A stretch of DNA of 64,000 nt from Candidatus Binatia bacterium (GTDB lineage: Bacteria > Desulfobacterota > Binatia > HRBIN30): positions 186,001 to 250,000 of the forward strand of contig JAOAHD010000016.1 of assembly GCA_026415395.1 (NCBI GenBank). The letters run 5' to 3'. A program made the translations under genes and the position numbers. How positions within the stretch are numbered: the first letter of the stretch is position 1; each line of letters starts with the position of its first letter. The notes beneath the pieces are model-generated. The model did not search any database and was not told where the DNA came from. It saw nothing but the letters and a program-made list of their open reading frames with translations. Positions 21,411-55,203 of this stretch are shown one piece after another.

Positions 21411-22580
21411 GTGTTGCAATTTTTCTACTTTCACCTCATGCCGTGGCCCCGTTTGCCTGCTCACTTCGACCGTAGCGAGCCGAGTGCGTGGGTGACGTTG
21501 TCGAACCGCTACTACGACCCGCAAGAAGGCCACACGCTTTACAACGAGTATCTCGACGAACTAGAGCGTGCCGAAGAACTCGGCTTCGACGGTCTGGCCG
21601 TCAACGAACACCACCAAAACGCGTACGGCACTATGCCCTCTCCGAACCTGATGGCCGCCGCTCTGGTGCGGCGCACGCACCGCGCGAAAATCGCCATCCT
21701 CGGAAACGCATTGCCCCTGCACGACCACCCTCTGCGGGTTGCCGAAGAGGTTGCGATGTTGGATGTTCTTTCCGGGGGCCGCATCATCTCCGGTTTCGTG
21801 CGCGGCATTGGCTGCGAGTATGTGTCGCTCGGCGTCAATCCCACCTTCTCGCGCGAGCGCTTTTACGAGGCGCACGATTTGATCGTACGGGCGTGGACCG
21901 AGCCCGGTCCATTTGCCTTCGAGGGCAAACATTATCGCTTCCGTTACGTGAATGTGTGGCCTCGCCCACTGCAGCAGCCTCACCCGCCGATTTGGCTGCC
22001 GTCTCAGGGCAGCACAGAAACGATTCGTTGGGGCGCAGAGCATCGCTACCCCTTCGTCAGCGTGTTTAATTCCTACGCGCTCACCAAGCGTTGGATCGAG
22101 GAGTACAAAGAGGCCGCTCGCGCCTGTGGCTACGAGGCCCCACCCGAGCAGATCGGGTTTGCCCTGCCGATTTACGTTGCCGAAAGCGACGCGCGCGCGG
22201 TGGCCGAGGCCGAGCCGCACTTCCTTTGGTTGTTTCGGCGGGGGCTCAAAATCCCGCCGAATTTCCTCTTGCCCCCGGGCTACATTACCGAGGAATCGTT
22301 ACGCAAGTTTTTGGCTGCAGGGATCCGATTGCCGGCGGAGCTTTCGTACAAAGAGTTGTTAGACCACGGGTACGTGCTCGCCGGTAGCCCGGCCACGGTT
22401 TTGGAACGGCTGCGCGCCGTGCACGAGGAGCTCGGGGTAGGCATCTTTATCTTCAGCGGGCGCACCGGCGACATGCCGAAAGACAAGGCCTGGCGCAGCA
22501 TGGAACTGTTTGCCACCGAAGTCATGCCCCGCTTGCGCCAGGCAGCTTCGACGCCTAGCGCTGCGCCGTCGAGCACGTAG
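21411..22580 (+). CDS. Luciferase-like flavin-dependent monooxygenase
   Basis: A 389-residue LLM-class oxidoreductase (TIM barrel, FMNH2 or F420). Diagnostic parts: ELGFDGLAVNEHHQNAYG, LPLHDHPLRVAEEVAMLD, LSGGRIISGFVRGIG and the C-terminal VLAGSPATVLERL. GTG start, preceded by AGAGGTAGG. It probably oxygenates a substrate handled by the adjacent hydrolase. Length is typical of the larger LLM proteins. No reductase partner lies nearby. Confidence 0.87.
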   Translation: MLQFFYFHLMPWPRLPAHFDRSEPSAWVTLSNRYYDPQEGHTLYNEYLDELERAEELGFDGLAVNEHHQNAYGTMPSPNLMAAALVRRTHRAKIAILGNALPLHDHPLRVAEEVAMLDVLSGGRIISGFVRGIGCEYVSLGVNPTFSRERFYEAHDLIVRAWTEPGPFAFEGKHYRFRYVNVWPRPLQQPHPPIWLPSQGSTETIRWGAEHRYPFVSVFNSYALTKRWIEEYKEAARACGYEAPPEQIGFALPIYVAESDARAVAEAEPHFLWLFRRGLKIPPNFLLPPGYITEESLRKFLAAGIRLPAELSYKELLDHGYVLAGSPATVLERLRAVHEELGVGIFIFSGRTGDMPKDKAWRSMELFATEVMPRLRQAASTPSAAPSST

Positions 22581-22599
22581 TGGCATGGGAGTTCAGTCG

Positions 22600-24306
22600 A
22601 TGACACAAGAGGCAGAAACTGCTGGCATGCATGACGCCGCTTTGGTCGCGCGGGCCTGTGGGCTCCTGTCCACAGCGTTGCGTGAAAGCTTGCACCTGGC
22701 TCGGGATCTCGTTGCCGAGGAGGCCGCGCACCTGCCACCGGCAGCATTGGAAACGCTCGATCAGTTGCTCGACGAATTTGCCCGCCGGCGCATCCGCATC
22801 GCCTTGTTCGGCGAAGTCAAGGCCGGCAAATCCACGCTGATCAATGCCATCGCTGGTCGTGCCCTCTCTCCCGTCGCGTTCGACCCGCTGACCTCCGTGC
22901 CCGTGCACATTACCTACGGCCAAGAAACCACTTGGTCGGTCAACGAACACCGGCTGCAAGCAATCGAAGAGCTCGAGAACTTCATGCGCACGCACCCCTT
23001 CGAAGCCTCGGAGGTGCGGGTGACAACCCCGCTCGACCTTCTCGCCCTCGGCGGACAAGTTGATTTGCTCGACACTCCGGGCATGGGTAGCCGCGAGCGA
23101 CATTTCGATTCCGTTACGGAGGAGATCCTGCAGGCGCTGGACGCGGTTGTGCTGGTTGTTCGCTACCCTGGATTGTTTACCCGCTTCACCCACGAACTAG
23201 TGGAGCGACTCGACGGAAGAATCAGCAAGCTTTTCGTCGTGTGGAATTTGGATCGCGGGTGCATCGATCTCTCGGAAACCGAGCGGCGCCACTTTGCCCG
23301 CCAACTTTCCGACAATGTCGGGATGACGCACGAGCTTCATCTCGTCGATGCGCGCACAGCCTTCGAGCGGGCCCACGACCCCGAGGCGCGTCGCGGCAGT
23401 GGAATCGACACATTCGTTGCCGCCTTGCGCGAGTTTGCCGCCTCGAATGCGCGCGATGTTGCAGCGCTGCGCGAAGCAGCCAAGGCTGGCGTTCGCTGGT
23501 TTGCCGATGTTTTGCCGGCACTGGAACTTCGGCTGCAAACTGTCGAGCAATACGTGCGCGAAGCCCGTGCGGCTGTGAGTGCTGTGCAACAAGAGGGCGA
23601 AAACGAACTCGCCGAAGCACGCAAGCGGGAAGCACAATTCGAAGCCAGCATCCAGCAACTGGTGCAGCGCCGGGCCAAACAGGCGCACGAACGAGGCGCT
23701 CGATTGCTCGAAGAAATTCACGCCGCTCGACGGCGCTGGATGCGCAATGGTCATCTACTGAAGCTCGAACGGGCCGTGGCCACAGCGGTCAGCGCCTTCG
23801 TAAACGACATGCACTCGCTCGCACGAGAAATTCGCGACGAACTGGTCACGGCTACTGCGGCGTTTGGGGCTGACCTGTCGCTCTCCATTCGCGCGCGCCA
23901 GCCCCTCGAGGTCGGTCGCCTCGCCCCCGAGGACCGTAACGTCCGCGCCAACAGCGGAAGCTTCAAGATCCTCCGCCGAGCTGTGTGGAACCAGTGGTAC
24001 TTGCCTGGGCTCGTTCGCTTCGAACGGGAAACCTTGAAGAAAGAAATGCAAGCTGTGACCGCCTGGCTACAAAGCGGCGCGCAAGCGGCCGTACAGGCCG
24101 GGCAGTCGACTACGGCGCAGCGTTTGCGACGGATTGCGGAACGCACTGCTGAGCGGGTGGAACAACTGCGCGAGGCCAAGCAGCTCGACGCTTACGAAGA
24201 GGAATACGAGCGGCTGCGCCAAGGGGTTCCAGGGTTAAAAGCCGAGGTGGAACACATCGAGCGTCTGGCCGAGCAAGCGCGCGATTTGCTGCAAGCAGCT
24301 CGGTGA
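22600..24306 (+). CDS. Dynamin-like GTPase
   Basis: About 568 aa. The G1 P-loop FGEVKAGKSTLINA (about residue 70), G2 Thr in PLTSVPVHI, G3 DLLDTPG and a G4-like VVWNLD identify a bacterial dynamin-type GTPase. The rest is largely coiled-coil (about 290-400 and 500-568) with a short hydrophobic patch near WNQWYLPGLVRFE that may touch membrane. Such proteins remodel or protect membranes. The ATG giving MTQEAETAG is chosen because GGGAG sits 8 bases upstream; ATG at 22585 is the alternative. Single copy, not the usual tandem pair. Confidence 0.85.
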   Translation: MTQEAETAGMHDAALVARACGLLSTALRESLHLARDLVAEEAAHLPPAALETLDQLLDEFARRRIRIALFGEVKAGKSTLINAIAGRALSPVAFDPLTSVPVHITYGQETTWSVNEHRLQAIEELENFMRTHPFEASEVRVTTPLDLLALGGQVDLLDTPGMGSRERHFDSVTEEILQALDAVVLVVRYPGLFTRFTHELVERLDGRISKLFVVWNLDRGCIDLSETERRHFARQLSDNVGMTHELHLVDARTAFERAHDPEARRGSGIDTFVAALREFAASNARDVAALREAAKAGVRWFADVLPALELRLQTVEQYVREARAAVSAVQQEGENELAEARKREAQFEASIQQLVQRRAKQAHERGARLLEEIHAARRRWMRNGHLLKLERAVATAVSAFVNDMHSLAREIRDELVTATAAFGADLSLSIRARQPLEVGRLAPEDRNVRANSGSFKILRRAVWNQWYLPGLVRFERETLKKEMQAVTAWLQSGAQAAVQAGQSTTAQRLRRIAERTAERVEQLREAKQLDAYEEEYERLRQGVPGLKAEVEHIERLAEQARDLLQAAR

Positions 24307-24790
24307 GCCCGCTTGCTCTGCTGCGCCAGCCGGTTGCTCGCGAGTTCGATCCTACCACGCCGCGCCCTTTCGCCGGAGGCCCCTAGCAAATTCCGTCCAT
24401 CGCGGGCGCAACGCTTGGAGCAGGAAGGCGAGCCGCGGGGGGCGAACGGCGAACAGCGGTGGATGATAGTTGTCACGTGACGTCCCCCGTGCCGTACGTA
24501 CCGGGCGCCGCAGGCTGCAGCACGGCCGGCGTGTGGCGGGGTACCTGGAGGGGTACTTCGCCCTCTCGAGCCACCTGCCTTTAGTTGCAGTGCAGCTAAT
24601 CTGATTTCTTGCGTTTCCTAATCGATGGTGGTACGGGGTGAGAGTTGCCGAGAAGGGTCCTGCAATGATTTACTGGCCCACTCCGCAAACCGGCGCAGGT
24701 TGGTGCCGAGGAGCCGTGCACGCCTGCAGGCTGCAAAGGCAGCGAAGCAGTGTGAAGCCACCGCCGCGGCACCTCCGACTGACGGGGCGG
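24307..24790. other. Intergenic region, no gene recognised
   Basis: No frame with family features. Small palindromes (TGTCACGTGACG-like near 24471 and GTACGTAC near 24494) are present but too short to interpret. The 3' part may hold the promoter of the disrupted dockerin-like gene. Confidence 0.35.
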
Positions 24791-25143
24791 ATGTTTTTGG
24801 CTGTCGTGTTGCCGTGTGTAGCCGTTCTGCCTTGGGGGGGCGGCTTCTCGCCGCACCAGCTTACCCTGCTCACTGCAACGGCAACGGAGCTGTGGACCTC
24901 GCCGAACTGCGCTATGCGCTGAACAATGTACTGGAACCTTCCAATGAGGGTCTCCCCGTGCGCTGCCCAGCCGTGGATGCAGATGGCAATTCGGACTACG
25001 GTGTGGAGGACTTGATTCGCGGCGCCACCGCCCGCGGCGTGGGCTGGCGTTGGGTGGTTTCCCCTGCTGGCTGGCGGGGAGCCATTGTCGACGCGCTCAC
25101 GCGCTTGCCCCTCGTGGATGCGATCGTAGAGGCAAACCCCTGA
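24791..25143 (+). pseudogene. Secreted dockerin-like protein, frameshifted at a G7 run
   Basis: Frame A begins MFLAVVLPCVAVLPWGG, a good signal peptide, then loses meaning after the homopolymer of seven G at 24834-24840. Frame B takes over with LLAAPAYPAHCNGNGAVDL, NNVLEPSNEGLPVRC and VDADGNSDYGVEDLI, a pair of EF-hand loops like the other dockerin-like modules here. One G too many or too few would restore a single protein. It then ends GWRGAIVDALTRLP...VEANP. Either slippage-prone, a sequencing error or a pseudogene. Confidence 0.6.
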
Positions 25144-25462
25144 CCACTTGCTTCGCCAGGAGCGCAGCACCCCGACTGGTATTGGCCAGCGAAGAACAGC
25201 GGCACGCCGAGGCCCGCGCCAGCACTTTGGGCGCAGACAGCGTACGGCAGCCCACCACTCATGTGGCCTGGTTTGCCGCCGCCGACCCTCGCCTTCGACC
25301 CAAGCGCCGCTCCTTGTTTGCCGAGCACTTCGGCGACACCACCGCCGACCCCGGGTTGGGAACGTGTGCGCGTGCGAAGACCGCCCGATTATTCGACTCG
25401 GGTCTTCTACCGACCGGTAGAGTTCACTCAACGCGAAATGTCTTTCTCGACTGCCGCTTGCC
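25144..25462. other. Degenerate stretch before lysyl-oxidase-like gene
   Basis: All forward frames are open for long stretches but none shows a signal peptide or family motif. The region probably contained the true 5' end (export signal) of the lysyl-oxidase-like gene; I could not reconstruct it. Confidence 0.3.
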
Positions 25463-26464
25463 GTGCTGGAACGCTGCGCAGCGCGGCAACCGACGCGTGG
25501 CCTCTGTACCCGCGAGGCACAACGCCCCCCGGAGGGGATCCTCCCCGACATCATCGTCGACGAGCGACAGATGGTAAGCGACCGCCGCCACATCTGCGTC
25601 GGCATGCCGGACGGCTGGGGAGACATCCGCGTCCTTCGGCTCGGTATCGCTACCCCGAACGTGGGGCTGGGAGACCTGCGCCTCGAAGGCAGCAACGTGG
25701 AGGACTGCGATACGAGCAACGACCGCGTCGAGCAGTGGATTGCCCTTGACCAGGAGCAAAGCAGTTTCCGCCGACGCGCCTTGCCGCCTGCATCGATCGA
25801 ACACCACCCAGCACACAATCACTTTCACTTGCGTAACTGGCCGCGCTTTCGGCTGGTGAAGCCGACCCCAGGGGTATGCGACCGGGTGAATTCCCGCCCG
25901 CAATCGTGCGTGGTGCGGGAATCTGAGAAGCTGAGCTTTTGCATCCGAGACACCCAAACGTTCGACCGCGAGATTGGCCCCCCTGACAGGCGCTTCACAG
26001 ATTGCGAGCTTCAAGCCGACGGGCTCGTGCACATGGGCATCCAGCGGGGCTGGTCGGACGTCTACGACAGTGGACTGTTCGGCCAGCTCATCGAAACCAC
26101 TGGCCTTTCCGGCACGTACCGGCTCGAAGCAGAAGCGAATTTGGACGGGGCCATCGAAGAGGAGGATCGGACAAACAATGTGGTGCGCGTACCAGTGACG
26201 TTTTCCACCCCGCAAGCGTGCGTGCGTACAACCTCCAGTTGGCAATGCGGAGCGAGCGCATCGGCTTGCAAGAATCTTGACTGTAGATCCGTAAGCCCCG
26301 ATTGCTGCCCCTGCTCGGGACCGGGCGGAAGGTGCCAGTCGGGTGACGAGTTCTCCCCATGCGGGCGTTGCAAGGACTACTTTAGTCTTCAGGATCCGAA
26401 CAGCGTCGCGTGCTTAGGTGTTTGTGGAACTTGCCCCGCCGATGCGGAGTGCTCCCAGGGTTGA
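25463..26464 (+). CDS. Lysyl-oxidase-like copper enzyme, N-terminus unclear
   Basis: A 333-codon frame from a GTG; the recognisable domain starts at ILPDIIVDERQMV. It has the copper-binding type motif HHPAHNHFHLRNW (His cluster), then KLSFCIRDTQTF, VHMGIQRGWSDVYDSGLFGQ and GTYRLEAEANLDG with EEDRTNNVV, the order seen in bacterial lysyl oxidases (PF01186). Family members oxidise Lys side chains to allysine, cross-linking proteins. A Cys-rich tail (CCPCSGPGGRC to CPADAECSQG) follows. No signal peptide is seen, so the start may be lost. The TGA at 26462 is followed in the same frame by a Thr/Pro linker and a cohesin-like domain. Confidence 0.7.
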   Translation: MLERCAARQPTRGLCTREAQRPPEGILPDIIVDERQMVSDRRHICVGMPDGWGDIRVLRLGIATPNVGLGDLRLEGSNVEDCDTSNDRVEQWIALDQEQSSFRRRALPPASIEHHPAHNHFHLRNWPRFRLVKPTPGVCDRVNSRPQSCVVRESEKLSFCIRDTQTFDREIGPPDRRFTDCELQADGLVHMGIQRGWSDVYDSGLFGQLIETTGLSGTYRLEAEANLDGAIEEEDRTNNVVRVPVTFSTPQACVRTTSSWQCGASASACKNLDCRSVSPDCCPCSGPGGRCQSGDEFSPCGRCKDYFSLQDPNSVACLGVCGTCPADAECSQG

Positions 26465-27131
26465 GGAGCAGCCGTTACACCCTGTGCCAGCGTTACACCA
26501 ACACCTACGCCCACAGCACCGACCCGCACGCCCACCCCCAGCGTCACACCCGCTGGCCCCACCCGCACTCCTACGTCGACTCCGCCCACCCCGGCCCTAC
26601 CTGGCCTTGCCGTGTTGATTCCGGGTGTCGAGGGTGCGCCTGGCCAACGCGTACTCCTCGACGTTCACCTCACTGGAAGCCGAGGGCTGGCGGCAGGCTT
26701 GCAGTTCGACTTGCTCCTCCCACAGGCAGCTCTGGCCGCGCTGAACGTCGCCGAGAGCAGGGGCGACTGCAGCCTTGTGGGGACTTTTTCCACTACCCAC
26801 CGCTTCCGCGCTGCCTACGCGTCGGATCATCCGTTGCCAGGGTACGACCGCGTGCGCCTGCTGGTCGTGGATCCGAACGTGGTCGACTCCAGCTACGATC
26901 CCACCGACGTGCTGGCCGATGGCATCGTGGTGCAGTGCTGGCTTACGATTTTGACCAATGCCCAGCGCGGCGCCTACCCCCTGCGCGTGGAGCGCGCGCG
27001 TGGGGGCGATGTGCGGGGCACGTCGCTTTGGCCGTTTGCTGGCCGCAGCACACTTTGGGTGGGAGGTTACAGTGGCAGTTGCTGCCGAAGGTCCCGCCAC
27101 CGGTGGAGGTACACAGACACGAAACGCCATG
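26465..27131 (+). pseudogene. Thr/Pro linker and cohesin-like domain without a start
   Basis: Continues the lysyl-oxidase frame directly after its TGA: a [17 protein letters not shown] linker, then GAPGQRVLLDVHLTGSRGL, AAGLQFDLLLPQAALAAL, YDRVRLLVVDPN, DGIVVQCWLTIL and GAYPLRVERA. The strand pattern (x-V-x-L-x...AA-x-QFDL...R-LLVVDPN...YPL) is that of cohesin-like jelly-roll domains. Past about 27030 the plausible end (WEVTVAVAAEG) lies one frame over. No start codon or ribosome site precedes it, so it is either a fragment or the C-terminal half of an interrupted fusion. Confidence 0.5.
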
Positions 27132-27133
27132 GC

Positions 27134-28145
27134 GTGCGGAGCAAGGGCAGGGTGGCCACCATTGGGTGGCTGATGCTGTTCGCTTGCGTGCTCTTCCTGC
27201 CAAAGGAAGCGGAGCCAAAGATGCCTTGTTTATCCATGGACCCGGAGCGGTCGTATGTCGTTCCGCCGGTGCGTGTACGCACGGAGCTGGTGGATGCCAG
27301 CGGGCGGGCGTTCGGGAAGCGGGAGGTGGCTCCGGGGGAAAGCACGCACATTTGCGTGGGTTTCAAGCCCCCCCCGGACGTGCCTGAGCGGGATGATGAA
27401 GCGGTTTTCGGCGGCTCCTTCCTGGTTTACGCCGAGCAAGCGGGCTTGACGCTCTCGTCCGTCGAGTGCCGGAAACGTGGCACTTGGCCGTGTATTTGGG
27501 GCCGGGGAGGACTCTTGAACTGTGACCCGCCGGGTTCCCGCGAGTCGTGTAGTGGCTTTGGCAACACAGTTTACGGTGGGGGATCCTGGGAGCCGCCCTA
27601 CCCTGGCGACATCCCCTGGCCGCGCGATCCGGCGGACGCCGAGGTGAGCTACCCTTTGCTGCCGGGTGAAGATCGCGCCCAAAAGCCGCCCAGGCTTGTA
27701 CACGCTGGGTTGTGGGCCGATGTCCTGCTGCGGAGAGGACGACGCCTGCGAGCGAACCGATGCCTGCGGGGAGGCGATCAACCTGCACCCTATTCCGCCC
27801 CCGATACGTTGCTGTTGTTGCCCGGAATGCGAGGTGGACACACTGCGGGTGGTGCCCTGCGTGGGGGACTGCGAGCGCGCTGGCGTGGTGACGGTGGAGG
27901 AGATCTTGCGCGGGGTGGCGGTGGCGTTGGGCTAGGCGGAGGCGGGGAGTTGCGAGGCAGCCGACGGCAACGAAGATGGGCTGGTGAGTATCGAGGAGTT
28001 GGTGCGCGCGGTGCGCAATGCGCTTTCGGGCTGCGTGGAGACTGCACGCGAAGACCGCGCAGCCGCTACCATTGGCGAAAGCGGTCGCCAGGCTACCGCG
28101 AAGCGTGAAGAGGGCGCGCGCGGCAGCGGTGTTTCCGATGACTAG
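27134..28145 (+). pseudogene. Secreted dockerin-like protein, frameshift plus amber stop
   Basis: A GTG start gives a good signal peptide (basic RSKGR, core IGWLMLFACVLFL). The mature part includes RTELVDASGRAFGKREV, ESTHICVGFKPPPDVPE and several Cys. Near 27660-27670 the sense moves to the next frame (VKIAPKSRPGLYTLGCGP, then CCCCPECE), ending in a dockerin-like module CVGDCERAGVVTVEEIL. TAG at 27933 cuts this module between its two loops; the same frame goes on with CEAADGNEDGLVSIEELV and ends at 28143. Family unknown. At least two disruptions make this a likely pseudogene. Confidence 0.6.
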
Positions 28146-28807
28146 CCCTCTTCTGCCGGTGGAGTTTGCTTGGCCAAGATGTCGAGAAGTCCCGACAAGA
28201 TCCGGTGGGTAAGGCCCCAAATCGTATGCCCTTGAAATTCGAATGCGGGCACAAATCCCACCTGAGCGTTTGTGGGATGACGGTACGGCTTGGAATTGTG
28301 CCGCAGCGCCGCAAGGGGGATCCACAAAGCACTTTGGACCTCCTCGGGATTGGGCACGAGCTGAACAGGGGCACGCAGCACGAACACCACGGGCCGAATC
28401 ACCAAGTCTAGAAGCTGGCCGCGGCCCACAGCCCTTAACTCATCGAGCTCGCCGACCACCTCCGCTGCCCGCTCCAGATCGACGCCAATTTCCTCACGCG
28501 TCTCGCGGACAGCAGTGGCAATCAAATGCGCATCCCCTGGTTGCTGCCGGCCGCCGGGAAGCGCCATGTGGCCCGACCAAGGGTCGCCTCTACGGTGTGC
28601 TCGGTGAATCGCCACAAACTCGCTGCCATGCACCCCGTCGCGCAGAATGAGCGCGACCGCTGCCCGCGGCAGGTCCGGGGGATCCTTCACCAGATGAACA
28701 GGTCGCTCGCGCAAGCGCTCGGCAATCTCCTGCGCACTCCATCTGCCCCATTCGTTCCCTGCCGCGCCCTTCGTTGCTTCCCGCCTGCTACGTTCAGACT
28801 CCTCCAT
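28142..28807 (-). CDS. Nudix hydrolase, CoA-pyrophosphatase type
   Basis: A 221-residue Nudix protein. The box reads [20 protein letters not shown] then EEIGVD; the Asp in place of the first Glu and the preceding [19 protein letters not shown] fit the NudL/YeaB subfamily that cleaves CoA and its derivatives. C-terminal [12 protein letters not shown] is also typical. It converges with, and overlaps by a few bases, the broken dockerin-like gene on the other strand. Confidence 0.88.
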
Positions 28808-28976
28808 AAGCCGCCAAGCTAGCCCAGAGTCCGATTTTCGCCACTATTCCAGCGGGGTGGCCCGCCCCCTCATAGCGGGTGTTCGTTCGCTTCTCCGAGG
28901 CCAGCTCTTACCCTACCCCTGGGCGATGCCTTTCGCTAAGAAAGCGCGTCGCTCGCCAAAAGAGAGGAGATTCCGC

Positions 28977-33247: not shown

Positions 33248-33315
33248 ACTTTCCGCTGGCGGGCGCGTTTGCTCGGTTGAAAACCGCGTGCCGCCACGCA
33301 TACAGTGGGCTTTCC

Positions 33316-35289
33316 ATGTTCCGTCGTGTAGCCCGTGGGCGTGCCTCCGCCGTTTGGTGGGTAGCGCTCGTCCTCGCCGCGATTTGCCGGCCGGCGACCA
33401 GTGGCGCTGCGGCGGAGGGGTGTGTGCCGGTGGAAGACCCGCCGTCGGTGGTGCGCACCTTGGCGGGGCAGGTTTTCGGCGGACTTCCCCCTTGTGGCTT
33501 CGTGGATGCGAACAACGACGGCGGCCCTACCGCCGCCGATCTACCGGCGGCAATCCTTCGCCTCAGCAGCCTACCAAGCCCCACGGCAACTCCTTCGTTC
33601 ACCATCCTACCGGCAACTCCCACGCCCACGCCGAGCACGGCATGGGCAACACCAACGCCTACCTCGAGCGAGACGGCCTCGTTCACCCCAACAGCGCCGG
33701 AATCGCCCACCCCGACCATGTCCTCGACTGTGCCGCCCACCGACACCCCGGAGCCCACGCCGTCCGCATCTGCCACGCCGTCCGTTCCCAGTTCACCGAC
33801 GCTCACCCCTGTGCCCTCGCATTTATGGACACTGACACCCACGGAAACGGCCTCGGCCACGGCCACACGCTCGGCCTCGCCAACTCGCACTCCCACGCCC
33901 ACTGGCACGCCTACCCGAACCCCCACCGCCTCGAACACAATTCCACCCACGCGGACTCGCACGGCAACCGCAACCCCAATCCCAACACGCACCGCAACTC
34001 CCACAGCCACAAATAGCACCAACCCATCTCCGACCCTCTCCTCCAGCGTCACTCCGTCTCCGACCTTGTCCCCACTGCCAAGCGCAACCACAGCCTCTAC
34101 GTCGACATCCGTCACCTCCACTCGAACTCCTTCACGGCCAGAGCCCACCTACACCATGACACTACCGCCCCCAGCGAGCCTATCTGCGACTCCGTCGGCT
34201 TCTCGCACAGCGACGCGTACTGCCACAAACACCAGTACCGCTACACTTACACGCTCGAGGACGCCGTCGCGCACCCCAGTGCCGTCGCTCACACCCACAG
34301 CTACGGCGAGTTTCACGGCAAGCCCAACTTCCTCGCCGACCCGGACGAGCACAGCTTCCCCTTCTTGGACTCCATCGCCGACCCCAACGCGTTCGCTGCC
34401 GCCGACGCTGACTCCTAGCTGGAGCCCCACCGCCACCTCGTCTCGGACCCCTTCGCTCACGCCCACGGCGACTGCCACACGGACTCGCACGGCTACCCGC
34501 TCGACAACGCCAACTCCGACGACAACACCCACCCCTTCGGCAACATTTTCCTTCACGCGCACCCGCTCCGCCACCGCAACGCGAACACCAACACCCACGA
34601 TCACTGATACGCGTACGCGCACGGCAACGAACACCCCGACCTACACGCCGCCGGGCATCGGACCTGAGGTCACCTTTTTTGGTGTCGTCACCAACCTGGA
34701 CGGTTGCGTCTTTTGCTGCGACCAACGCTGCCGCCGCACCCCCACGCCAACCCCGTGGATCGATGCGCAAGGGCGGCGCATCTTCTCAGCGAACAGCGGG
34801 CAATTCATCATTGTGGTCGAGGGCAAACCGGGCGCGAGCGGCGCGGCAGTGGGAACCTCATTAGAACCCGGATTCGATGGGCGGCCAGACCTGCAGATCC
34901 AGAACTCGCGGGCCATGGGAAACGGTAGCCTCACCGTGTGCGACACTGGCCCTCCGAGCCAAGGAGGTGGCGGTGTACCGGGCGTGTGGCCTCCGCGCTT
35001 CGATCCTGCAGACACCTTCGTGACCAATGCATTGCAAGATTTTGCCTGCCGCTTCGATCCTTCCGTCAGCGCTTCTGCTCCGTGTACCATGCTCGACCCG
35101 GGCCGCGAGCCAAGCCTGGTGGTGGCGACGTCGACCGCGCAATTTTGCGACTTCGTCGCAGCCACCGCTGTGTTCCCGCCCGGAGACAACATTCTCACTG
35201 TGCGCTTGCGGGACGCCCAAGGAAACCCTGGGCCGACGGCGCAAATCGTGGTGCGCGTGGCGACACCCACGGCCACCCGCACTCCCTGA
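33316..35289 (+). CDS. Giant Thr/Pro-stalk secreted protein A
   Basis: A 657-residue exported protein. Signal peptide (about 1-31), a short Cys-containing module with one EF-hand-like half (DANNDGGPTAADLPAAIL), then a 350-residue stalk of (S/T)PTxT units, and a C-terminal domain (about 445-657) starting [20 protein letters not shown], with IIVVEGKPGASG, DTGPPSQGGGGVPG and VFPPGDNILTVRLRDAQG. That domain is shared with the next gene. I recognise no enzyme in it; conserved Cys pairs suggest disulfides. The stalk would display it away from the cell. Reading to 33277 is unlikely because MFRRVARGR starts the signal. Confidence 0.75.
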   Translation: MFRRVARGRASAVWWVALVLAAICRPATSGAAAEGCVPVEDPPSVVRTLAGQVFGGLPPCGFVDANNDGGPTAADLPAAILRLSSLPSPTATPSFTILPATPTPTPSTAWATPTPTSSETASFTPTAPESPTPTMSSTVPPTDTPEPTPSASATPSVPSSPTLTPVPSHLWTLTPTETASATATRSASPTRTPTPTGTPTRTPTASNTIPPTRTRTATATPIPTRTATPTATNSTNPSPTLSSSVTPSPTLSPLPSATTASTSTSVTSTRTPSRPEPTYTMTLPPPASLSATPSASRTATRTATNTSTATLTRSRTPSRTPVPSLTPTATASFTASPTSSPTRTSTASPSWTPSPTPTRSLPPTLTPSWSPTATSSRTPSLTPTATATRTRTATRSTTPTPTTTPTPSATFSFTRTRSATATRTPTPTITDTRTRTATNTPTYTPPGIGPEVTFFGVVTNLDGCVFCCDQRCRRTPTPTPWIDAQGRRIFSANSGQFIIVVEGKPGASGAAVGTSLEPGFDGRPDLQIQNSRAMGNGSLTVCDTGPPSQGGGGVPGVWPPRFDPADTFVTNALQDFACRFDPSVSASAPCTMLDPGREPSLVVATSTAQFCDFVAATAVFPPGDNILTVRLRDAQGNPGPTAQIVVRVATPTATRTP

Positions 35290-35298
35290 GGAGTCACC

Positions 35299-37845
35299 GT
35301 GCGGGGCAAAATGGCGCAAACGGGTCTCGTGGCTGCGTTCCTCTGGCTCTTGCCAGCGGCGAGCCGAGGTGCGGAATGCACGGTGACGCTGGACGCGCAC
35401 GGGGCCATTGCCTGGCTCGGACTGCTGTTCGAGGAGGCTGCCGACTGCTCGGACGCCGACACCAATCGCGATGGGGCCGTAACTGCGGCTGACCTAGTGA
35501 GCGCGATTGCGCGCTTGCAAGTTCCCGCAGCGACAACCACGCCAGTGTCCCCGAGTAGCACTCGTACACCCGGCGCCACCGCAACATCCACGCCGGCACT
35601 CCCCAGTCCCACAGACACAAGCAGCGTGACGGCAACGCCGACGCATAGCACCACGCCACCCCCCACTGACAGCCGAACGCCCACACCGAGTGGGACGCCT
35701 TCGCTCACGCCTCGCCCTCTGGCCACGGCCTCGCCAACGGCTTCCGCGTCACCATCCCGAACGCCATCCACGACGCCTTCCAGGACATCCACACTGACGC
35801 CCACACCGCCATCCCCGACCCTGCCCACACCGTCGCATTCCGCCACCAGCACGTACACCAGCGTCCGCAGTGCGAGCGGGACCCTGACTCCGAGCAGCAC
35901 CCCCACCGCAACCTTGCAATCGACAGCGACGGGCACGGGCACGGTCAGCGCAACCCCATCGCCGAGCCCGGCAGCGTCTCTCACTCCCGAACCACCGTCG
36001 CCCAGCCCGAGCTGGTCTCGCACGCCGGAGCCGTCCCCCTCGCCCAGCCCGGTACCAGCGTCGGCCACCGAGACCCCAACAGAGACGACTTCGCCCACTC
36101 CCACCCTTCAGCCGATCTCGGCAACACCCACTGAAACACCCTCGCCTACGGAAACGGCCAGCGCGACGGGGTCGCCGACGGCAACGCGAACCCCAATCCC
36201 GGGAAGCCAGCCGACAAACACGCCGACGGCTTCATTCACGATTCCAGCGACGCGCACTCGGACCCCTACGCGCACGCGCAGTAGCGCGCCCTCGCCCACG
36301 CCAACGAACACCGCTTCACTCACCCCTTCTCCAAGTGCATCGCCCTCAGCGAGCCACTCGCCCACGGCCACCGAAAGTCCGACGGCAACGAGTTCAGCTA
36401 CTGAGACAGCCACGGTTACGCACACGTCGTCCCCGACCGTCTCACCGTCAAACACGGGGACAGCAACGGAATCCGCAACCCCTACGGCAACCCCCACGCC
36501 ATCACCCACTGCAACGGCGTCTCACAGCCCATCGCCAACACCTTCGCTCACTTTGACCGCGACACCCACGGTAACCCCAACAGCGACGTCCACGCTGAGC
36601 CCTACCGTCTCGCCGACGTCCACGCCCTCTCCCACGCCCAGCGATACCCCGACGATCACTGCCACCGCCACACACACAGCAACGCCAACCCACTCGGCAA
36701 CCCACACCTTTTCTCCCACACCGTCGCCCTCACCTACCAGCACAGCGAGCCCTACCCCGACGGCAACTCACTCGGCCACCGCCACGCTCACCCCCACGAT
36801 GACCCGCACGGCCACGCGCACAGCCACACCGACCGTAACAATGACACCCACTCCAACCCCGACCGCATCCCACACTGCGACGCCGACGCGCACGCACACC
36901 CCCACACGCACGCGGACACACACGGCCACTCCTTCAGCCACTCCGACGCTGAGCAGCACTCCAACTGCGTCCGCAACACCGACACCGACGGGTCAGGGGC
37001 CCGTCGTCACCGCGTTTGCAGCGATTGCCCGGCTCGATGGCTGCGTGTTCTGCTGTGAGCTCGAATGCCAAAGCTGGCCGACGCCGACGCCAGAGTTCGA
37101 TGCAGCCGGACGGCTCGTCTACAGGCTCACGTCCGGACAGTTTCTCATCGTCGTCGAGGGGCGTCCTGGCCTCAGTGCCCAACCGCTCGGAACCTCCCTG
37201 CAACCGGGTGCAGACGGTCGCCCTGACATCTGGATCGAAAACAACCGTAATCTCGGCAATGGCAGTTTGACCGTGTGCGATACGGGTCCGCCTTCCCTCG
37301 GTGGAGGCGGCATTCCCGGAGTGGACCCACCGCGATTCGACCCCGACGATCTCTTTGTCACGAATGCACTCGTGGACTTTGCCTGCCGTTTCGATCCGTA
37401 CATCACTGTGAACACGCCGTGCACGATCGTCGACGCCTCGCGCGATCCCAAGCTCCTGCAACCGAACTCCACCTGGCAGTTTTGCAGTGCGGTGACCGCG
37501 ACGATGGTTTTTCCGCCCGGAGAAAACTTGCTGAGCGTCGCCCTGCGCGATGTGGCCGGAAACACCGGTCCGACAGCACAAATCGTCGTGGTCGTGGCCA
37601 CGCCAACCGTTACTCCGACCCCGACCCCCACATCTCCTTCACCCACACCCACGGTGACCCTCACCCGCACCCGCTCGCCCACGCGCACCCGCACGCCTAC
37701 ACGCACACCCTCAGCCACGGCGAGCCCCACCGACACCGCCACATTCACTCCTTCTGCCACGCCGTCCGCAACACCCACACCCACGCCAAGCCCCTCCATA
37801 ACACCGTCCGCATCGCCCTCACCACCCGCGCCTCCGTCTCCATAA
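35299..37845 (+). CDS. Giant Thr/Pro-stalk secreted protein B (paralogue of A)
   Basis: An 848-residue tandem paralogue of the preceding gene. GTG start, signal peptide (about 1-25), EF-hand-like half ([19 protein letters not shown]), a stalk of nearly 490 residues made of TPTPS-type repeats, then the same C-terminal domain ([43 protein letters not shown]) at about 565-768 and, unlike A, an extra Thr/Pro/Arg tail of about 80 residues ending abruptly. Stalk DNA is near-repetitive, so copy number is likely to vary. Antisense of the repeat is open in all frames but meaningless. Confidence 0.75.
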
Positions 37846-44255: not shown

Positions 44256-44852
44256 TTAAAAGCGATAGGTCAGGCCGAAGGTGACGGGGATGTGATCCTT
44301 GTCCTCCACGTCAAAGGCCGTGAACACGTACGAAGCTTCCAACGTCGCCGCGATGTTTTCGGTGGCGTACACGTCGAAGCCAAGACCACCCCGTGGACTG
44401 AAGCCGTTGTCGTCGCGAGAAATGCCCATCAAACCGGAGCGGCCGGCATCCAGGTGCATCACCCCAGGGCCAATCAAGGCGTACGGCTGCACCCTTCCGG
44501 TGAGCGCGTAAAGCTTCACGTTCATCCAAAAGCCCCAACTTAAGAGATCCACCGATGGTCCATCCGGGGGTTCCAGCTCGCGGTCGCGATAATGCTGGAA
44601 GCTTCCTTCCACCGCCACGTTCGTATGTGCACGGTAGCCAACGCGCAAGTCGAACCCGAGCGCGTTCTTTACATTTACGCCGGTGGCATCGGTGTCGAAA
44701 TTCTCGACCGAGTAGGCACCCAGCCCCGCCACATAGAAACCGGTGCGGCCAAACTTCTCCTCCTGGGCAAGACACCGAGCGGCAGGCAACAACGCCAAGC
44801 CCAGAAGAGCCCCGAAGAACCACCCGCTGCCAATATTCACGCGCCGTCTCAT
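44256..44852 (-). CDS. Outer-membrane beta-barrel protein
   Basis: A 198-residue protein with a signal peptide (about 1-29, ending RCLAQE) and alternating strands: FYVAGLGAYSVENF, GFDLRVGYRAHTNVAVEG, YALIGPGVMHLD, and a C-terminal aromatic PVTFGLTYRF typical of barrel proteins recognised by BAM. It fits an OmpA-like 8-stranded porin. Role unknown. The ATG giving MRRRVNIGSG is chosen. Confidence 0.75.
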   Translation of the reverse strand: MRRRVNIGSGWFFGALLGLALLPAARCLAQEEKFGRTGFYVAGLGAYSVENFDTDATGVNVKNALGFDLRVGYRAHTNVAVEGSFQHYRDRELEPPDGPSVDLLSWGFWMNVKLYALTGRVQPYALIGPGVMHLDAGRSGLMGISRDDNGFSPRGGLGFDVYATENIAATLEASYVFTAFDVEDKDHIPVTFGLTYRF

Positions 44853-45200
44853 AACGTCCACCTCCCGAGTCGCTCGCGGTCGCGCAGGCCACAGCCTTGG
44901 GCTCGCGAATCGCTTTGCGGCTATCACGAAAAGGCTCCTTCGGCAACAAGAACTACAAGTGTTCGCTCCTCGTACCGCCCCGCAAGGCCCATCTTGCGTA
45001 CGACCAGCGAAACTGCCGAGCAGTGACGGCTATGGATCGGCGACTCCCGAATAGCAAATGGGGAACGCGTGGATCGGTGATGCTGTCGCCACCGCTGCTA
45101 CGCGTTGCCATCCTAGCACGCGGCACCAGCGCGGTCGTAGGGGCAGCCCTTGTCGCTACCCTCGTTTGCCTGCGCCACCGCTAATACCTCAACCTCCCAC

Positions 45201-45221
45201 GGGCAGGCGCGAGGCCTGCCC
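45201..45221. repeat. Inverted repeat hairpin
   Basis: GGGCAGGC followed by GCGAG and GCCTGCCC: an 8-base-pair stem with a 5-base loop, flanked by CCTAC as in the palindrome family at 9074. Possibly a member of the same dispersed repeat. Confidence 0.5.
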
Positions 45222-45258
45222 CTACAACTTTTCCATGCACTGTCGCGGCACCTGCACA

Positions 45259-45284
45259 ATCGTAGGCGCGACGCATGCGTCGCC
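45259..45284. repeat. Second copy of the 9074 palindrome core
   Basis: AATCGTAGGCGCGACGCATG then CGTCGC: shares AATCGTAGG and the perfect 16-base core GCGACGCATGCGTCGC with the element at 9074-9103. The outer arms have diverged. Confidence 0.7.
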
Positions 45285-45369
45285 GCGTTGCCATAGTGCC
45301 AAAATGCCGCCCCTGCTCCAACGGTACCTTGCGATCGCGCCGCAACGCGTACGGGCGGCGCAGTGGCCA

Positions 45370-46413
45370 TCAGACCAAGCCGAGGCGGGCCGCGACGTCT
45401 TCGTAGTTCGGCACCTCGGCGTACAGCTTTTCAAGGTCGTTCCGGGCACGCCGAACGTCGCCCAGGCCTTCGTAAACCAGAGCGCGCTCGTAGCGGAGGG
45501 CGCGGAGCAACTCTGGGTCTCTGCCTGCCGTCTTCCGGAGCGCCGTGCTCAGCGTCTCCAGCGCGGCAGCAAGTAAACCGAGTCGACGTAGAGCCCTGGC
45601 TTTGTAAAGCAGCAGCGCGGTGTGCAGCGGGGTGTCGTTCTCTACACCGGCGGCCAACTGCACGACCTCCTGCAGCGACTCGCGATCGTTCGGGCGTGCG
45701 TCCAAGAGCAGCTCGGCTAACGAAAGGCGCACCACGAGATCGTCCGGCGCAAGCGAGCGTAGCCGCTCGAGGCAGAGCGATGCATCCACCCACTGTCCGG
45801 TGTGCTGATAGAGCTCGGCGAGAGCAAGGAGCAGCCCCTGCAGGTTCGGGCCAACGTGGGCACAGATCTCCGGGGCAATGCGCACACTGACGGTGAGGGC
45901 CACACCGTACTTGGCGAACAACGTTCCAAGCTCCTTCTCGTGCTCCAAGGCGAAGGTAAGGTGCCGCTTTGCCTTGTCCCAATCGCCCCGCTCGAATGCC
46001 AGCACACCGGCAAAAAACGCCGCATCGGCAAGCTGCGGGGCTTGGTCCAGCATCGCCAAAGCTTGCGCCGTCTCGCCCTGCACCAGCGCGCGACAGCCAT
46101 CCACAAACGCTTCTTCCTCCTTGGGCGTCCACAGCCGCGCAAAAAAGCCTAGCGTGAGGCGATCTTCCGGCCTGACCGCAGGCAGAGCCGGCTCGCTGAC
46201 CTGCGCATTTCCCCCGCGACTGGTTTTCTTCGTCGGAAAAGTCGTCGTGTAAAAGATTCCTGTTCCGGGAATGCCAACGGTGGCGCGCTGTCCACCCGGA
46301 CCGATCGTGAACTTGGCCCCGCGCGGCCCGAAACTCAGCGATGCTCCCGACTTGCTCAGGTTCACGCTCACCCCTGGCAAGATCTGCACCCGCCGCCAAA
46401 AACGAAATCCCAT
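45370..46413 (-). CDS. DUF4236 plus TPR-type protein
   Basis: About 347 aa. The N-terminal MGFRFWRRVQILPGVSVNLS, SFGPRGAKFTIG and GIPGTGIFYTT are the DUF4236 signature. Residues about 95-345 form helix-pair repeats of TPR type (LAELYQHTGQWVDASLCLE, ALVYEGLGDVRRARNDLE). No signal peptide. The SD GGAGG lies before the ATG at 46413; a GTG two codons earlier overlaps it. Function unknown; the TPR part suggests a protein-binding scaffold. Confidence 0.75.
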   Translation of the reverse strand: MGFRFWRRVQILPGVSVNLSKSGASLSFGPRGAKFTIGPGGQRATVGIPGTGIFYTTTFPTKKTSRGGNAQVSEPALPAVRPEDRLTLGFFARLWTPKEEEAFVDGCRALVQGETAQALAMLDQAPQLADAAFFAGVLAFERGDWDKAKRHLTFALEHEKELGTLFAKYGVALTVSVRIAPEICAHVGPNLQGLLLALAELYQHTGQWVDASLCLERLRSLAPDDLVVRLSLAELLLDARPNDRESLQEVVQLAAGVENDTPLHTALLLYKARALRRLGLLAAALETLSTALRKTAGRDPELLRALRYERALVYEGLGDVRRARNDLEKLYAEVPNYEDVAARLGLV

Positions 46414-46562
46414 GGGCACCTCCTTCGGCTGGCTTTCTGCCCCACTCGTGTGCCATCACGTCTCGGGGCCCGAGTCAAGCGCCGGGCGCGCATGTTGAGC
46501 CCTCCGCCCCTCTCCGGCGCCTCGAGATTACCGTCAGCAACGCGCGCGCAACTCGCGCCGAT

Positions 46563-48647
46563 TCAAATCTGGTAGTTGTGTACGAACACGCGCATTTTCT
46601 TCGGAAAGACAAACAGCCGCTCCGCCGGCTGTGGGCGCAGCTCCGCGTAACGTTCCCACGGCAACTCCACGCGCAGCACCATGCCGAAGTGCACCGCGTG
46701 GAGTTCCAGTTTCACGGTGCCACCGAGCGGATTCACGCGTAGCAGGCGGGCTTCCACGCTATATACGCCACGGGGGATGCGATCCACTTCCAGTTCATGC
46801 GGGCGCACATACGCCACGGCGGCTTCTCCGTCGGCCTGTTCCTCTTCGCTCACACCTAGCGGGGCAACGAACCCTTGCCCCTCCCGCACGCGGCCAGGGA
46901 ACTTATTCACGTAGCCGAGGAATTCAGTGACGAATGCATTCGCTGGATGCTCGAAGACCTCCACTGGTGTTCCCGTTTGCTCGACCTTGCCATGATTCAA
47001 CAACACAACCTGATCCGCTACCTCGAATGCCTCCTCCTGGTCGTGGGTAACGAACACACTCGTCACGCCTATCTCATCGTGTAAGCGGCGAAGCCATTCC
47101 CGCAGTTCGCGGCGCACTTTGGCGTCGAGGGCGCCGAACGGCTCGTCGAGCAACAAAACCTCGGGCTCCGCGGCTAGTGCCCGTGCCAGGGCAACACGTT
47201 GCCGTTGGCCACCTGAAAGCTCGGCAGGCCGCTTCCCTTCGAGCCCCTCGAGGCGCACCAAATGCAACAGTTCGCGCACGCGGCGATCCACTTGCCGGCG
47301 TGGCCACCGACGCACGCGCAGCCCAAAGGCCACGTTTTCGTACACTGTCAGATGCCGAAACAGCGCATAGTGCTGGAACACGAATCCTACGTTGCGCTGG
47401 TGGGGAGATTCACCGGTGACATCACGCCCGCGGTAAAGTACAAGCCCGCGGTCAGGTTGCTCCAGTCCCGCAATGATCCGCAGTAACGTAGTCTTTCCCG
47501 AACCCGACGGACCGAGGAGGGCAAGCAAGCTCCCCGTGGGTACGGTGAAACTCACATTGTCCAACGCCACGAAGCGCCCGAACGACTTGCTCACTCCCTC
47601 CACTCGGATGCCATCTTCTGTGCCGCTCGCAGAGGGAGACGCCGAAAACGTGCTCGGTGCGGCACTAGCGGTTTGCGCAGAGTGAACCGGCCCGGTTGCC
47701 ACATGGTCACCACGACCTTGCCCTTCCTCTTGTCCCCGCGAGGGATCGTCCTCGCTTTCGAACGCTTGCAGCTCCTGGCGTGTCCTTCGCTCGAGCCACG
47801 TTTTCGCGACCACGGTGGCCATGCCGAGCAAAGCGAGCAAACTCGCGACAGCAAACGCGCCGGGTAGATCGTAATCCTGGAACAACTTCTCGACCCGCAG
47901 CGGTAAGGTATCGGTCACCCCGGTGATGCGTCCCGACACTACATACACTGCGCCGAATTCGCCCATGGCTCGCGCGTTGCACAAAACCACGGCGTACAAG
48001 AGGCCCCAACGGATGTTCCGCAGGGTAATTTTGCCCCACATCTGCCACGCACTCGCCCCCAGGCTACGCGCTGCCAACTCCTCCTCCGCACCGACGGCTT
48101 GCAACAACGCTACCAATTGTCGCGCCACGATGGGGAACGTAACCAGCACGGTGGCAAGCACGAGCCCTGGCTCAGCAAACACGATCCTGATGCCCCACGC
48201 CTCCAGCCACGGGTACAAGGGCCCCCGGGCACCGAACACGAGAACCAAGCTCAGCCCCGCCACTACGGGAGACACCGACAGCGGCAGGTCGATCACGGCC
48301 GCTAACAGCTTGCGGCCGAAAAACTCGAAGCGAGCCAATAACCACGCTGCGCACAAGCCGAAGCCGGTATTGATCGCCACGGCAAGCAAGGCCACGCGCA
48401 GAGTCAGCGACGCAGCAGCCCGGGTGTCGGGATCGCCTACAAGCTGGCGCAAAAACGCACGCGGGCCATGCACTAGTGCTTGCGAAGCGATGACACCAAG
48501 CGGCAGCAGGATCAAAAGACCGACAACCACGAGCGCCGAGGAGGCCACCACAGCGTTGGCCCACTGTTCAACCTGCAAGAGCCGCTTTGGCCGCTCCTTG
48601 AACCACCGGTTCATTACTAACCGCTTGCGGATTTCCTCAGCCCACAT
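46563..48647 (-). CDS. cysWA: CysW-CysA fusion: sulfate permease joined to its ATPase
   Basis: A 694-residue fusion. Residues about 1-275 form a CysW-type permease with [40 protein letters not shown] and the [12 protein letters not shown] loop. A hydrophilic linker rich in Glu/Ser/Gly (about 285-340) leads to an ABC ATPase: Walker [13 protein letters not shown], signature [15 protein letters not shown], Walker [14 protein letters not shown], and a CysA-type TOBE region. No stop or frameshift separates the halves. Normally these are separate subunits. It overlaps the cysT stop by 11 bases. The start MWAEEIRK is chosen over an earlier Arg/Trp-rich reading. Confidence 0.9.
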
Positions 48648-49461
48648 AGCGCGCCCCCCAACGATGCAGAACTTCGATCGTGAGCAGAACGAGCAGCGAG
48701 GCGCCCAAAAGCACCGAGGCAACCGCTGCAGCCTCGGCGTATGCGAACTCCTCCAAGCGCGCGACGACCAAAACCGGCGCAATCTCCGTGACGAAGGGCT
48801 TGTTCCCCGAAACGAACACCACCGAACCGTACTCGCCGGCCGCCCGAGAGAAGGCCAAAGCAAAACCGGTTAGGAGTGCCGGGACGAGTTGGGGAATCTG
48901 GACACGAACCAACGTCTGCCAACGCGACGCACCGAGGCAAGCGGCTGCCTCCTCGAGTTCCCTTTCCAAATTGGCAATCACCGGCTGCAGGCTGCGCACA
49001 GCCAGCGGGAAACTCACGAATACCAGCACCAACACGACCGCCGCACGGGAGTACGCCAGAGTCACGCCCCAGCGAGTCAGGTACTGGCCGAGGAAGCCGT
49101 TCGGTGCGTACAAATTCGCGTACACCAAACCCGCTACGGCCGTCGGCAATGCCAGAGGAACATCTACCAGGGCGTCGACGAGTCCGCGTGCCGGGAACGT
49201 TGCCCGCACCAGCGCCCACGCGACAACACTGCCGAGAAGCGTCGCCACGGTCGCGGCCAAGAGAGCGGCACCGAAGGTGAGCTGGTATGCAGCGAGCGCG
49301 CGCGGCGTGAGCACGGCAGCCCAGAACCCATGCCAGCCGAGCGACGCAGCGTGGAGCAACACCGCACCAAGCGGCAAAGCCACCACAACCGCCACCGAAA
49401 CCACGGACAAGGTAAGGGCGGCGCGAAACCCGGGAAGAATCCTGCGCTCGTAGCGACTCAT
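48637..49461 (-). CDS. cysT: Sulfate/thiosulfate permease CysT (CysU)
   Basis: A 274-residue membrane protein with six segments and the permease motif [20 protein letters not shown] (EAA loop), plus [19 protein letters not shown] typical of CysT. It pairs with the CysW half of the fusion as the channel. The ATG overlaps the binding-protein stop (ATGA). Normal length. Confidence 0.92.
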
Positions 49462-50555
49462 CGCTGCCCCTCCCCCGATGCAAAGATCCGGTCGAACAGC
49501 GCGCCTTCGGCAAAGAACTTCTCCTGGGCGGCCTCCCAACCGGAAACAATCTCCTGAACGCGGAACAGCCGAAGCGCCGGAAACCGCTCCGCGTAGCGCT
49601 CCAGTACAGCGCGATCGACGGGGCGGTAGTAGTGTTGCGCGATCATCTCTTGCGCCGCCGGGGTAAACAAAAAACGCAAGTACGCTTCCGCCACCGCCCG
49701 AGTTCCCTTACGCTCCACCACACGATCGACCCATGCAACCGGCGGCTCTGCCAAAATACTGATGGGCGGGTAGACGATTTCGACTCCTCCTTGAGACTCG
49801 CGAACTTCGAGGTGGGCCTCGTTCTCCCAACTGAGGTGCACATCTCCCATGCCCCGCTGCACAAAGGTGGTAGTTGCACCACGGGCACCGGTGTCCAACA
49901 CGGGCACATTGCGATACAGCTTGGTGACGTAATCGCGAGCATCGGCCTCCGAGCCGCCACGGAGAACCACCGCGCCCCAAGCGGCGAGGAAGCTCAGGCG
50001 TCCGTTGCCCGATGTCTTGGGATTGGGCGTGATCACTTGCACGCCCGGGCGAACAAGGTCAGCCCAGTCCCGAATGTTTTTCGGATTGCCCTTACGCACG
50101 ACGAACACGATGGTGGACACGTAAGGCACGGAATTGTTCGGCAGCCGCTGTTCCCAGCCCTCCGGAATCAAGCCCGCCTTGCGGATTGCATCCACGTCCG
50201 GCCACAACGCCAGGGTCACAACATCGGCGGCCAAGCCGTCGATCACCGCACGAGCCTGACTTCCCGAGCCCCCGTGCGATTGACGGATGACCAACCTTTT
50301 GCCGCCTTCGGCTTCGTACTTGGCGCGAAATGCGCCGTTCAGGTCGCGCCACAGCTCCCGCGTTGGATCGTACGAGGCGTTGAGCAACTCGAGCGCCTCC
50401 TCGGCGAGCGCGGGGAAGGCAAGGCCCACCGCTCCCGCCATCCACACGCAAAGTGGCAGGACGACCCACAAACTTGCGTAACGACGCCGACGGGAGACGC
50501 GCGAAAATTGCCGTTCGGCACCGTATCCAATTCCCGATGCAATCGGAGTTCTCAT
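49458..50555 (-). CDS. cysP: Sulfate-binding periplasmic protein
   Basis: A 365-residue binding protein (Sbp/CysP). An extended twin-charged N-terminus (SRVSRRRRYAS) precedes the signal helix ending FPALAEE; then ELLNASYDPTREL, QSHGGSGSQARAVIDGL, TPNPKTSGNGRLSFLAAWG and GMGDVHLSWENEAHLE, all family-specific. It delivers sulfate or thiosulfate to CysT-CysWA. An excellent SD (AGGAGGG) precedes the ATG. First gene of the operon, behind the attenuator-like leader. Confidence 0.93.
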   Translation of the reverse strand: MRTPIASGIGYGAERQFSRVSRRRRYASLWVVLPLCVWMAGAVGLAFPALAEEALELLNASYDPTRELWRDLNGAFRAKYEAEGGKRLVIRQSHGGSGSQARAVIDGLAADVVTLALWPDVDAIRKAGLIPEGWEQRLPNNSVPYVSTIVFVVRKGNPKNIRDWADLVRPGVQVITPNPKTSGNGRLSFLAAWGAVVLRGGSEADARDYVTKLYRNVPVLDTGARGATTTFVQRGMGDVHLSWENEAHLEVRESQGGVEIVYPPISILAEPPVAWVDRVVERKGTRAVAEAYLRFLFTPAAQEMIAQHYYRPVDRAVLERYAERFPALRLFRVQEIVSGWEAAQEKFFAEGALFDRIFASGEGQR

Positions 50556-50600
50556 AAATCCCTCCTCGACGAGTGAAAGAATGACAACGCTCGATGTGCC

Positions 50601-50640
50601 GCCTCTCGCCCCACCGCCGTCGCGGAGCGCGGCGAGAGGC
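50601..50640 (-). promoter_or_regulatory. Hairpin in the cysP leader
   Basis: GCCTCTCGCC (50601-50610) pairs with GGCGAGAGGC (50631-50640), a 10-base-pair stem, between the terminator and the cysP ribosome site. It may stabilise the leader or pause polymerase; no riboswitch family is recognised. Confidence 0.5.
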
Positions 50641-50653
50641 AGCGGTCTTGGCG

Positions 50654-50690
50654 CAAAACAACGAAGGCCCAGGGGCTTCCCGGGCCTTCG
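50654..50690 (-). terminator. Attenuator terminator before cysP
   Basis: On the minus strand CGAAGGCCC (50690-50682) pairs with GGGCCTTCG (50670-50662), 9 bp with an 11-base loop, followed by TTGTTTTG. It precedes cysP by about 100 bases. The 5' arm plus loop can instead pair with an upstream segment (50776-50760), giving a choice between termination and read-through. No other minus-strand gene lies upstream that would need it. Confidence 0.6.
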
Positions 50691-50715
50691 CGGGTGGTGC
50701 GTTGATTCTCAATTA

Positions 50716-55169: not shown

Positions 55170-55203
55170 GTGTGCAACCGTGACGGCCCGATTGACGATT
55201 CGC

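Follow-up and report, generated by a model that had tools for sequence, protein, structure and literature searches.

A lysyl oxidase domain within a probably decaying modular gene of a Binatia bacterium

The window analysed here, 64,000 nucleotides of contig JAOAHD010000016.1 from a Candidatus Binatia bacterium (assembly GCA_026415395.1), carries on its forward strand an open reading frame (ORF) of 333 amino acids that begins with GTG and extends exactly from 25463 to 26464. Lysyl oxidases are copper enzymes with which animals cross-link collagen. The initial annotation had taken this ORF for a lysyl-oxidase-like gene, and a Pfam profile search bore this out: PF01186.22 scored 26.9 bits (E 4.4e-6), above its gathering cut-off of 20.4, with residues 111 to 254 (25793-26224) lying on positions 77 to 201 of the 204 in the profile. 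The copper motif HHPAHNHFHLRNW and the GWSDVYDSG block, on which that annotation had relied, are both within the ORF. Matches to the ORF protein at E <= 0.001 were found in 17 of 58 genomes (the window's own genome counted), and His118, His120, His122, Lys156 and Tyr201 were invariant in the 21 rows of an alignment of the ORF with 20 relatives; the PF01186 match is thus not a chance one. The histidines belong to the copper motif HPAHNHFH at 25805-25828, in which the codons of His115, His118, His120 and His122 begin at 25805, 25814, 25820 and 25826, respectively. With the human cofactor residues numbered K320 and Y355 (PMC4448552), Lys156 (25928-25930) corresponds to Lys320 of human LOX and Tyr201 (26063-26065) to Tyr355, the two residues that form the quinone, and comparison with the motif quoted in the same paper puts His115 at the position of human His289.

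A structure model was built from 25529-26461, with a mean pLDDT of 70.3, ten-residue block means of 55 to 92 up to residue 230 and values under 50 from residue 242. Its best solved match was human LOXL2 (5ze3; Foldseek E 2.7e-8), with Z 14.9 and an rmsd of 2.8 over 174 residues, and the runner-up reached Z 8.0. The fold, the copper histidines and the quinone-forming lysine and tyrosine are common to LOXL2 and the window domain; however, the latter is 20% identical over the aligned residues, is joined to dockerin-like and cohesin-fold modules, and is broken. A search of the ORF sequence against solved structures returned no lysyl oxidase (the single match, at E 1.5, is a chance one), and an NCBIfam search of the ORF gave no match. 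Taken together, the profile match, alignment, model and fold place at 25529-26230 a lysyl oxidase family domain with the predicted lysyl oxidase fold, and the copper histidines and the quinone-forming lysine and tyrosine, which the initial annotation had named for checking, are present in it.

All frames of 24300-28900 were read beside G001, a genome of the same genus, and a nucleotide alignment to G001 was added. Homology to G001 extends far past the ORF, with changes of frame, and a coding-frame track over 24718-28140 passes through three different frames in succession. At the upstream end, on the forward strand as are all features of the locus, six-frame reading revealed a stretch at 24791-24850, MFLAVVLPCVAVLPWGGG, that resembles a signal peptide by eye and lies in a different frame from the part that follows it; a run of seven G (24834-24840) stands near this change of frame. 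An EF-hand/dockerin-like pair with its following stretch occupies 24850-25140 in the frame of 24625 and is homologous to G001 (63%) and to G002, another genome of the genus (62%). The same frame is interrupted by a nonsense codon, TGA, at 25141-25143, where G001 has TGG in the nucleotide alignment, and continues, as indicated by codon-position differences from G001, through the linker between the dockerin-like part and the lysyl oxidase (25144-25530). At 25525-25531, next to six consecutive C (25525-25530), a single additional base shifts the reading into the frame of the lysyl oxidase domain. The DNA upstream of about 25531 therefore codes in another frame, and residues 1 to about 20 of the ORF are an out-of-frame reading; no signal peptide was seen by eye in 25463-26464.

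Beyond the enzyme domain, a Cys-rich stretch (26231-26461; model confidence under 50) leads to the TGA at 26462-26464 that ends the ORF, and the frame continues open through two further parts. We take this TGA as a lesion, although the lysyl oxidase gene may originally have ended here. The first of the two parts is a Pro/Thr-rich linker (26465-26602) in the frame of the lysyl oxidase domain, identified by six-frame reading and also present in G002; the second is a cohesin-fold domain (26603-27085), whose model has a pLDDT of 83. At 27086-27088, CGA replaces the stop TGA of G002, so that the end of the gene is lost. The remains of a downstream EF-hand/dockerin-like gene follow at 27125-28079; in the window their reading frame shifts within 27367-27657 and is interrupted by a TAG at 27933, and in G002 the corresponding sequence is part of one open ORF of 409 amino acids with EF-hand matches below cut-off.

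Sequence evidence that the first part is dockerin-like is weak. In the window copy (24850-25140), no Pfam model exceeded its cut-off (EF-hand_1, E 0.15); among 12 aligned members, the window copy included, EF-hand_1 was found in 11 and Dockerin_1 in 7 (E <= 1). For the cohesin-fold part, the best solved matches were cohesins, which are named in 47 of the 50 titles among the structure matches listed, and 6kgc_A aligned with Z 15.6 and an rmsd of 2.0 over 130 residues. The Pfam cohesin model PF00963 had no match in the window copy, and matched 7 of 11 aligned members of this part at E <= 1 (best E 0.0032). The fold is shared with type I cohesins of cellulosomes (PDB 6kgc, 1aoh), but the window part is 17% identical to 6kgc_A and stands in frame with an amine oxidase. 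The sequence comparisons indicate that one ancestral frame comprised the enzyme together with the dockerin-like and cohesin-fold parts.

The initial annotation had also placed the gene near stalk and dockerin-like proteins. Stalk-like ORFs are indeed present in the window at 33277-37845, but they lie about 7 kb away with several ORFs between. There are two of these long Pro/Thr-rich ORFs, each of which by eye starts with an EF-hand-like repeat and carries after the stalk a stretch similar in both.

The locus is also broken, at different places, in both further genomes of this genus identified in the 58-genome search. In G001, one-base shifts stand opposite 25260 and 25858, and there is no counterpart of about 25990-26963, a segment that holds the quinone tyrosine and the greater part of the cohesin domain; the following gene is likewise largely missing. 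The order dockerin-like part, linker, lysyl oxidase and end of the cohesin part is common to G001 and the window. In the G002 locus, nothing matched the lysyl oxidase part, and the dockerin-like and cohesin parts differ in frame. The complete architecture was not found uninterrupted in any relative examined. Concerning the surroundings, a comparison of window 24300-28100 and 44800-56100 indicated that 28.1-44.8 kb is inverted relative to G001 (and to G002 as far as contigs show), with the lysyl oxidase locus at one end of the inversion; in G001 and G002, the locus lies by eye near bactofilin-like and ATP synthase-like genes.

Divergence from G001 is concentrated at third codon positions to either side of the breaks. 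In the frame of 24625, the third position differs at 50 of 91 sites in 24870-25140 and at 55 of 76 in 25290-25520 (the other positions at 17 and 18 of 76); in the frame of 25463, it differs at 55 of 108 sites in 25535-25860. Across all three segments, 20-28% of the other two codon positions differ. The pN/pS values against G001 for four segments of the locus were 0.25, 0.34, 0.35 and 0.43, and those against G002 were 0.32 for the dockerin-like part, 0.34 for the cohesin part and 0.36 for the end of the following gene; for comparison, a lysyl oxidase paralog gave 0.12-0.18 and a neighbouring dynamin-like gene, roughly cut, 0.26, all values being rough as synonymous sites are near saturation. 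Since third-position-biased divergence and these pN/pS values persist across the breaks, the sequence was coding until recently; the pieces probably encoded a single protein during most of the period after the genomes diverged, and the breaks are probably of recent date. As a separate observation, the dockerin-like parts of the locus in G001 and G002 (L026 7660-7953 and L155 4517-4807) are far closer to each other (pS 0.35) than the lysyl oxidase paralogs of these genomes are (pS 0.70), a pattern that would suit an exchange of the locus between the two.

As a control for the frame changes, the window was compared in translation with pieces of G001 and G002. Within the locus, three net frame changes, all against G001, fell inside overlapping matches among 799 aligned codons, and in the flanks 11 junctions were flagged among 13,780 aligned codons. 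One of the 11, at 22561-22592, lay in overlapping matches and coincides with an overlap of two ORFs; the other ten fell between matches separated by 11 to 73 bases, and nine of these were gene-to-gene boundaries when set against the ORF list or the coding-frame track. The tenth, near 63.3 kb, could reflect a genuine frame shift in G001.

A second lysyl oxidase gene is present in the window's genome on another contig (L001 1141-2118, contig 18), encoding 325 amino acids with a Pro/Arg-rich tail and scoring 37.8 and 38.3 bits against PF01186 in two runs. This simpler paralog is uninterrupted in all three genomes, and is likely to be the working lysyl oxidase of the cell. PF01186 was detected in at least 4 of 296 genomes of the phylum, in a scan that missed the second copy in the window's genome, and in none of 14 control genomes. 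The 30 pattern matches from a single-protein scan of named genomes included no relative. With a profile built on 11 sequences, 136 relatives were identified among 172 stretches; the best 80 of the 136 were kept, and 74 of these best 80 named loci showed HxHxH, the lysine and the tyrosine by pattern. The fourth histidine, which comes first in the motif and is described in PMC4448552 as absent from bacterial sequences, is present in the window (25805-25807) and in 36 of these 74 bacterial loci.

In a tree with rows drawn from twelve named phyla, the window sequence paired with L051 of Verrucomicrobiales (support 91/88) on a very long branch, within a set of Planctomycetota, Verrucomicrobiota, Zixibacteria and others that stood apart from the Binatia paralogs. 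In a smaller tree of 31 hand-chosen rows out of 86, this group was weak and a clade of the window sequence with the Binatia paralogs was not rejected (p-AU 0.083). Given the very long branch and this value, a horizontal origin of the window lysyl oxidase is not established. Ten proteins of the tree set (L051, L061, L052, L055, L057, L059, L064, L069, L089 and L117) were searched with Pfam: Dockerin_1 was over cut-off in three (L061, L089 and L117), below cut-off in two (L064 and L069) and absent from five, and none of the ten had a cohesin match. The three over cut-off combine an uninterrupted lysyl oxidase with Dockerin_1: L061 3684-6821 in Zixibacteria, L089 4674-8207 in Planctomycetota and L117 4767-6254 in Phycisphaerae, the last with a PEP-CTERM anchor motif over cut-off at its C-terminal end. 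Together with L051, these three are the nearest to the window sequence in the tree; unlike the window locus, they are open ORFs with the dockerin after the enzyme, whereas the dockerin-like part of the window precedes it.

That lysyl oxidases are uncommon in bacteria, as the initial annotation had remarked, is a fair statement, but bacterial members have already been published (PMC4448552, PMC6452851). According to these reports, lysyl oxidases are sporadic in bacteria, occurring in five bacterial clades, and an archaeal one (HTU-LOX, PMC6452851) is active, with an unclear role; PF01186 and the active-site residues are common to these proteins and the window domain. The prokaryotic architecture described in PMC4448552 is simple, with all but three proteins being single-domain, whereas the window domain lies in a modular, broken frame with a cohesin-fold part. 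A Cys-rich C-terminal part is reported in PMC6452851 for Sorangium lysyl oxidases and is seen by eye after the enzyme in L054, L065, L067 and L075, as in the window; however, the Sorangium proteins fall on another branch of the tree and are without the fourth histidine (SACHGHYH in L054). No report of a lysyl oxidase paired with a dockerin was found in the literature searched, a collection with few subscription journals, and the main text of the Binatota genome paper PMC8262859 has no words beginning with lysyl, dockerin or oxidase. A bacterial lysyl oxidase is thus of a known kind, and its pairing with dockerin- and cohesin-type modules is less expected.

The most convincing explanation, which we hold with good confidence, is that the ORF represents the enzyme domain of a gene in decay, whose ancestor was modular and probably secreted and was followed by a second dockerin-like gene. 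The ancestral protein would have consisted of a signal peptide, the EF-hand/dockerin-like pair, the lysyl oxidase, the Cys-rich stretch, a Pro/Thr stalk and the cohesin domain, with a second dockerin-like protein encoded downstream. Copper held on the three histidines would have allowed Lys156 and Tyr201 to form lysyl tyrosyl quinone, with which the enzyme may have turned primary amines into aldehydes, and cohesin-dockerin contacts could have kept the exported enzyme at the cell surface. With its frame cut at 25141, about 25531, 26462 and 27086, the gene in the window's genome would no longer make this modular protein.

One observation against decay is that a single frame stays open through the entire lysyl oxidase domain, active-site residues included, and that an enzyme without signal peptide could be made from it. 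A shortened lysyl oxidase might start at GTG 25463 or ATG 25571 and work inside the cell or after lysis. We regard this as unlikely. By eye, no Shine-Dalgarno-like sequence just precedes either start, residues 1-20 come from out-of-frame DNA, and orthologous loci have lost the tyrosine half (G001) or the whole domain (G002). The broken original frame at 25141 and about 25531 and the missing signal peptide make a working enzyme less likely but leave the family membership of the domain untouched. The copper loading and disulfides of lysyl oxidases suggest an exported enzyme, which also counts against a shortened intracellular one. Export is, however, not universal, as prokaryotic lysyl oxidases that lack a signal peptide have been described (PMC6452851, PMC4448552).

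The signatures of selection that continue across the breaks would also fit an intact gene in living cells whose breaks are sequencing or assembly errors, and the two frame changes at short homopolymers (G7 at 24834-24840 and C6 at 25525-25530) are of a kind consistent with this. It is nonetheless very improbable, as the TGG-to-TGA difference and the lost stop are substitutions, the breaks are concentrated at the locus (the 13,780 flank codons hold no clear in-gene break, the 63.3 kb junction aside), and G001 and G002 are also broken, one of them without the enzyme domain. The coding constraint on either side of the breaks also suits expression by programmed frame shifting, read-through or on/off switching; yet the homopolymers are short and the break sites differ among the three genomes, with large losses included. 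We have set programmed frame shifting aside because of these differing positions, and the whole explanation has hardly any likelihood. Decay of a modular gene remains the preferred reading, and the suggestion of the initial annotation that the protein could cross-link the extracellular matrix is unsupported for the window copy, the gene being broken in the window, G001 and G002.

These observations carry a caution for annotation, namely that a clean domain match with the full set of active-site residues can sit in a dead gene. They also lead us to a broader proposal, offered tentatively and as a possibility that we rather doubt: some bacteria may carry a lysyl oxidase on a surface scaffold of cohesins and dockerins, such that the cross-linker is placed on, and polymerised with, their own matrix proteins. 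This genus would have inherited such a protein and be losing it by different lesions in each of the three genomes; related fusions of lysyl oxidase and dockerin, one with a PEP-CTERM anchor, are found uninterrupted in Zixibacteria and Planctomycetota. The role of prokaryotic lysyl oxidases has been called enigmatic and cryptic (PMC6452851). The modular ancestral frame and the uninterrupted dockerin fusions suggest that surface scaffolds may be a place to seek the substrates of these enzymes.
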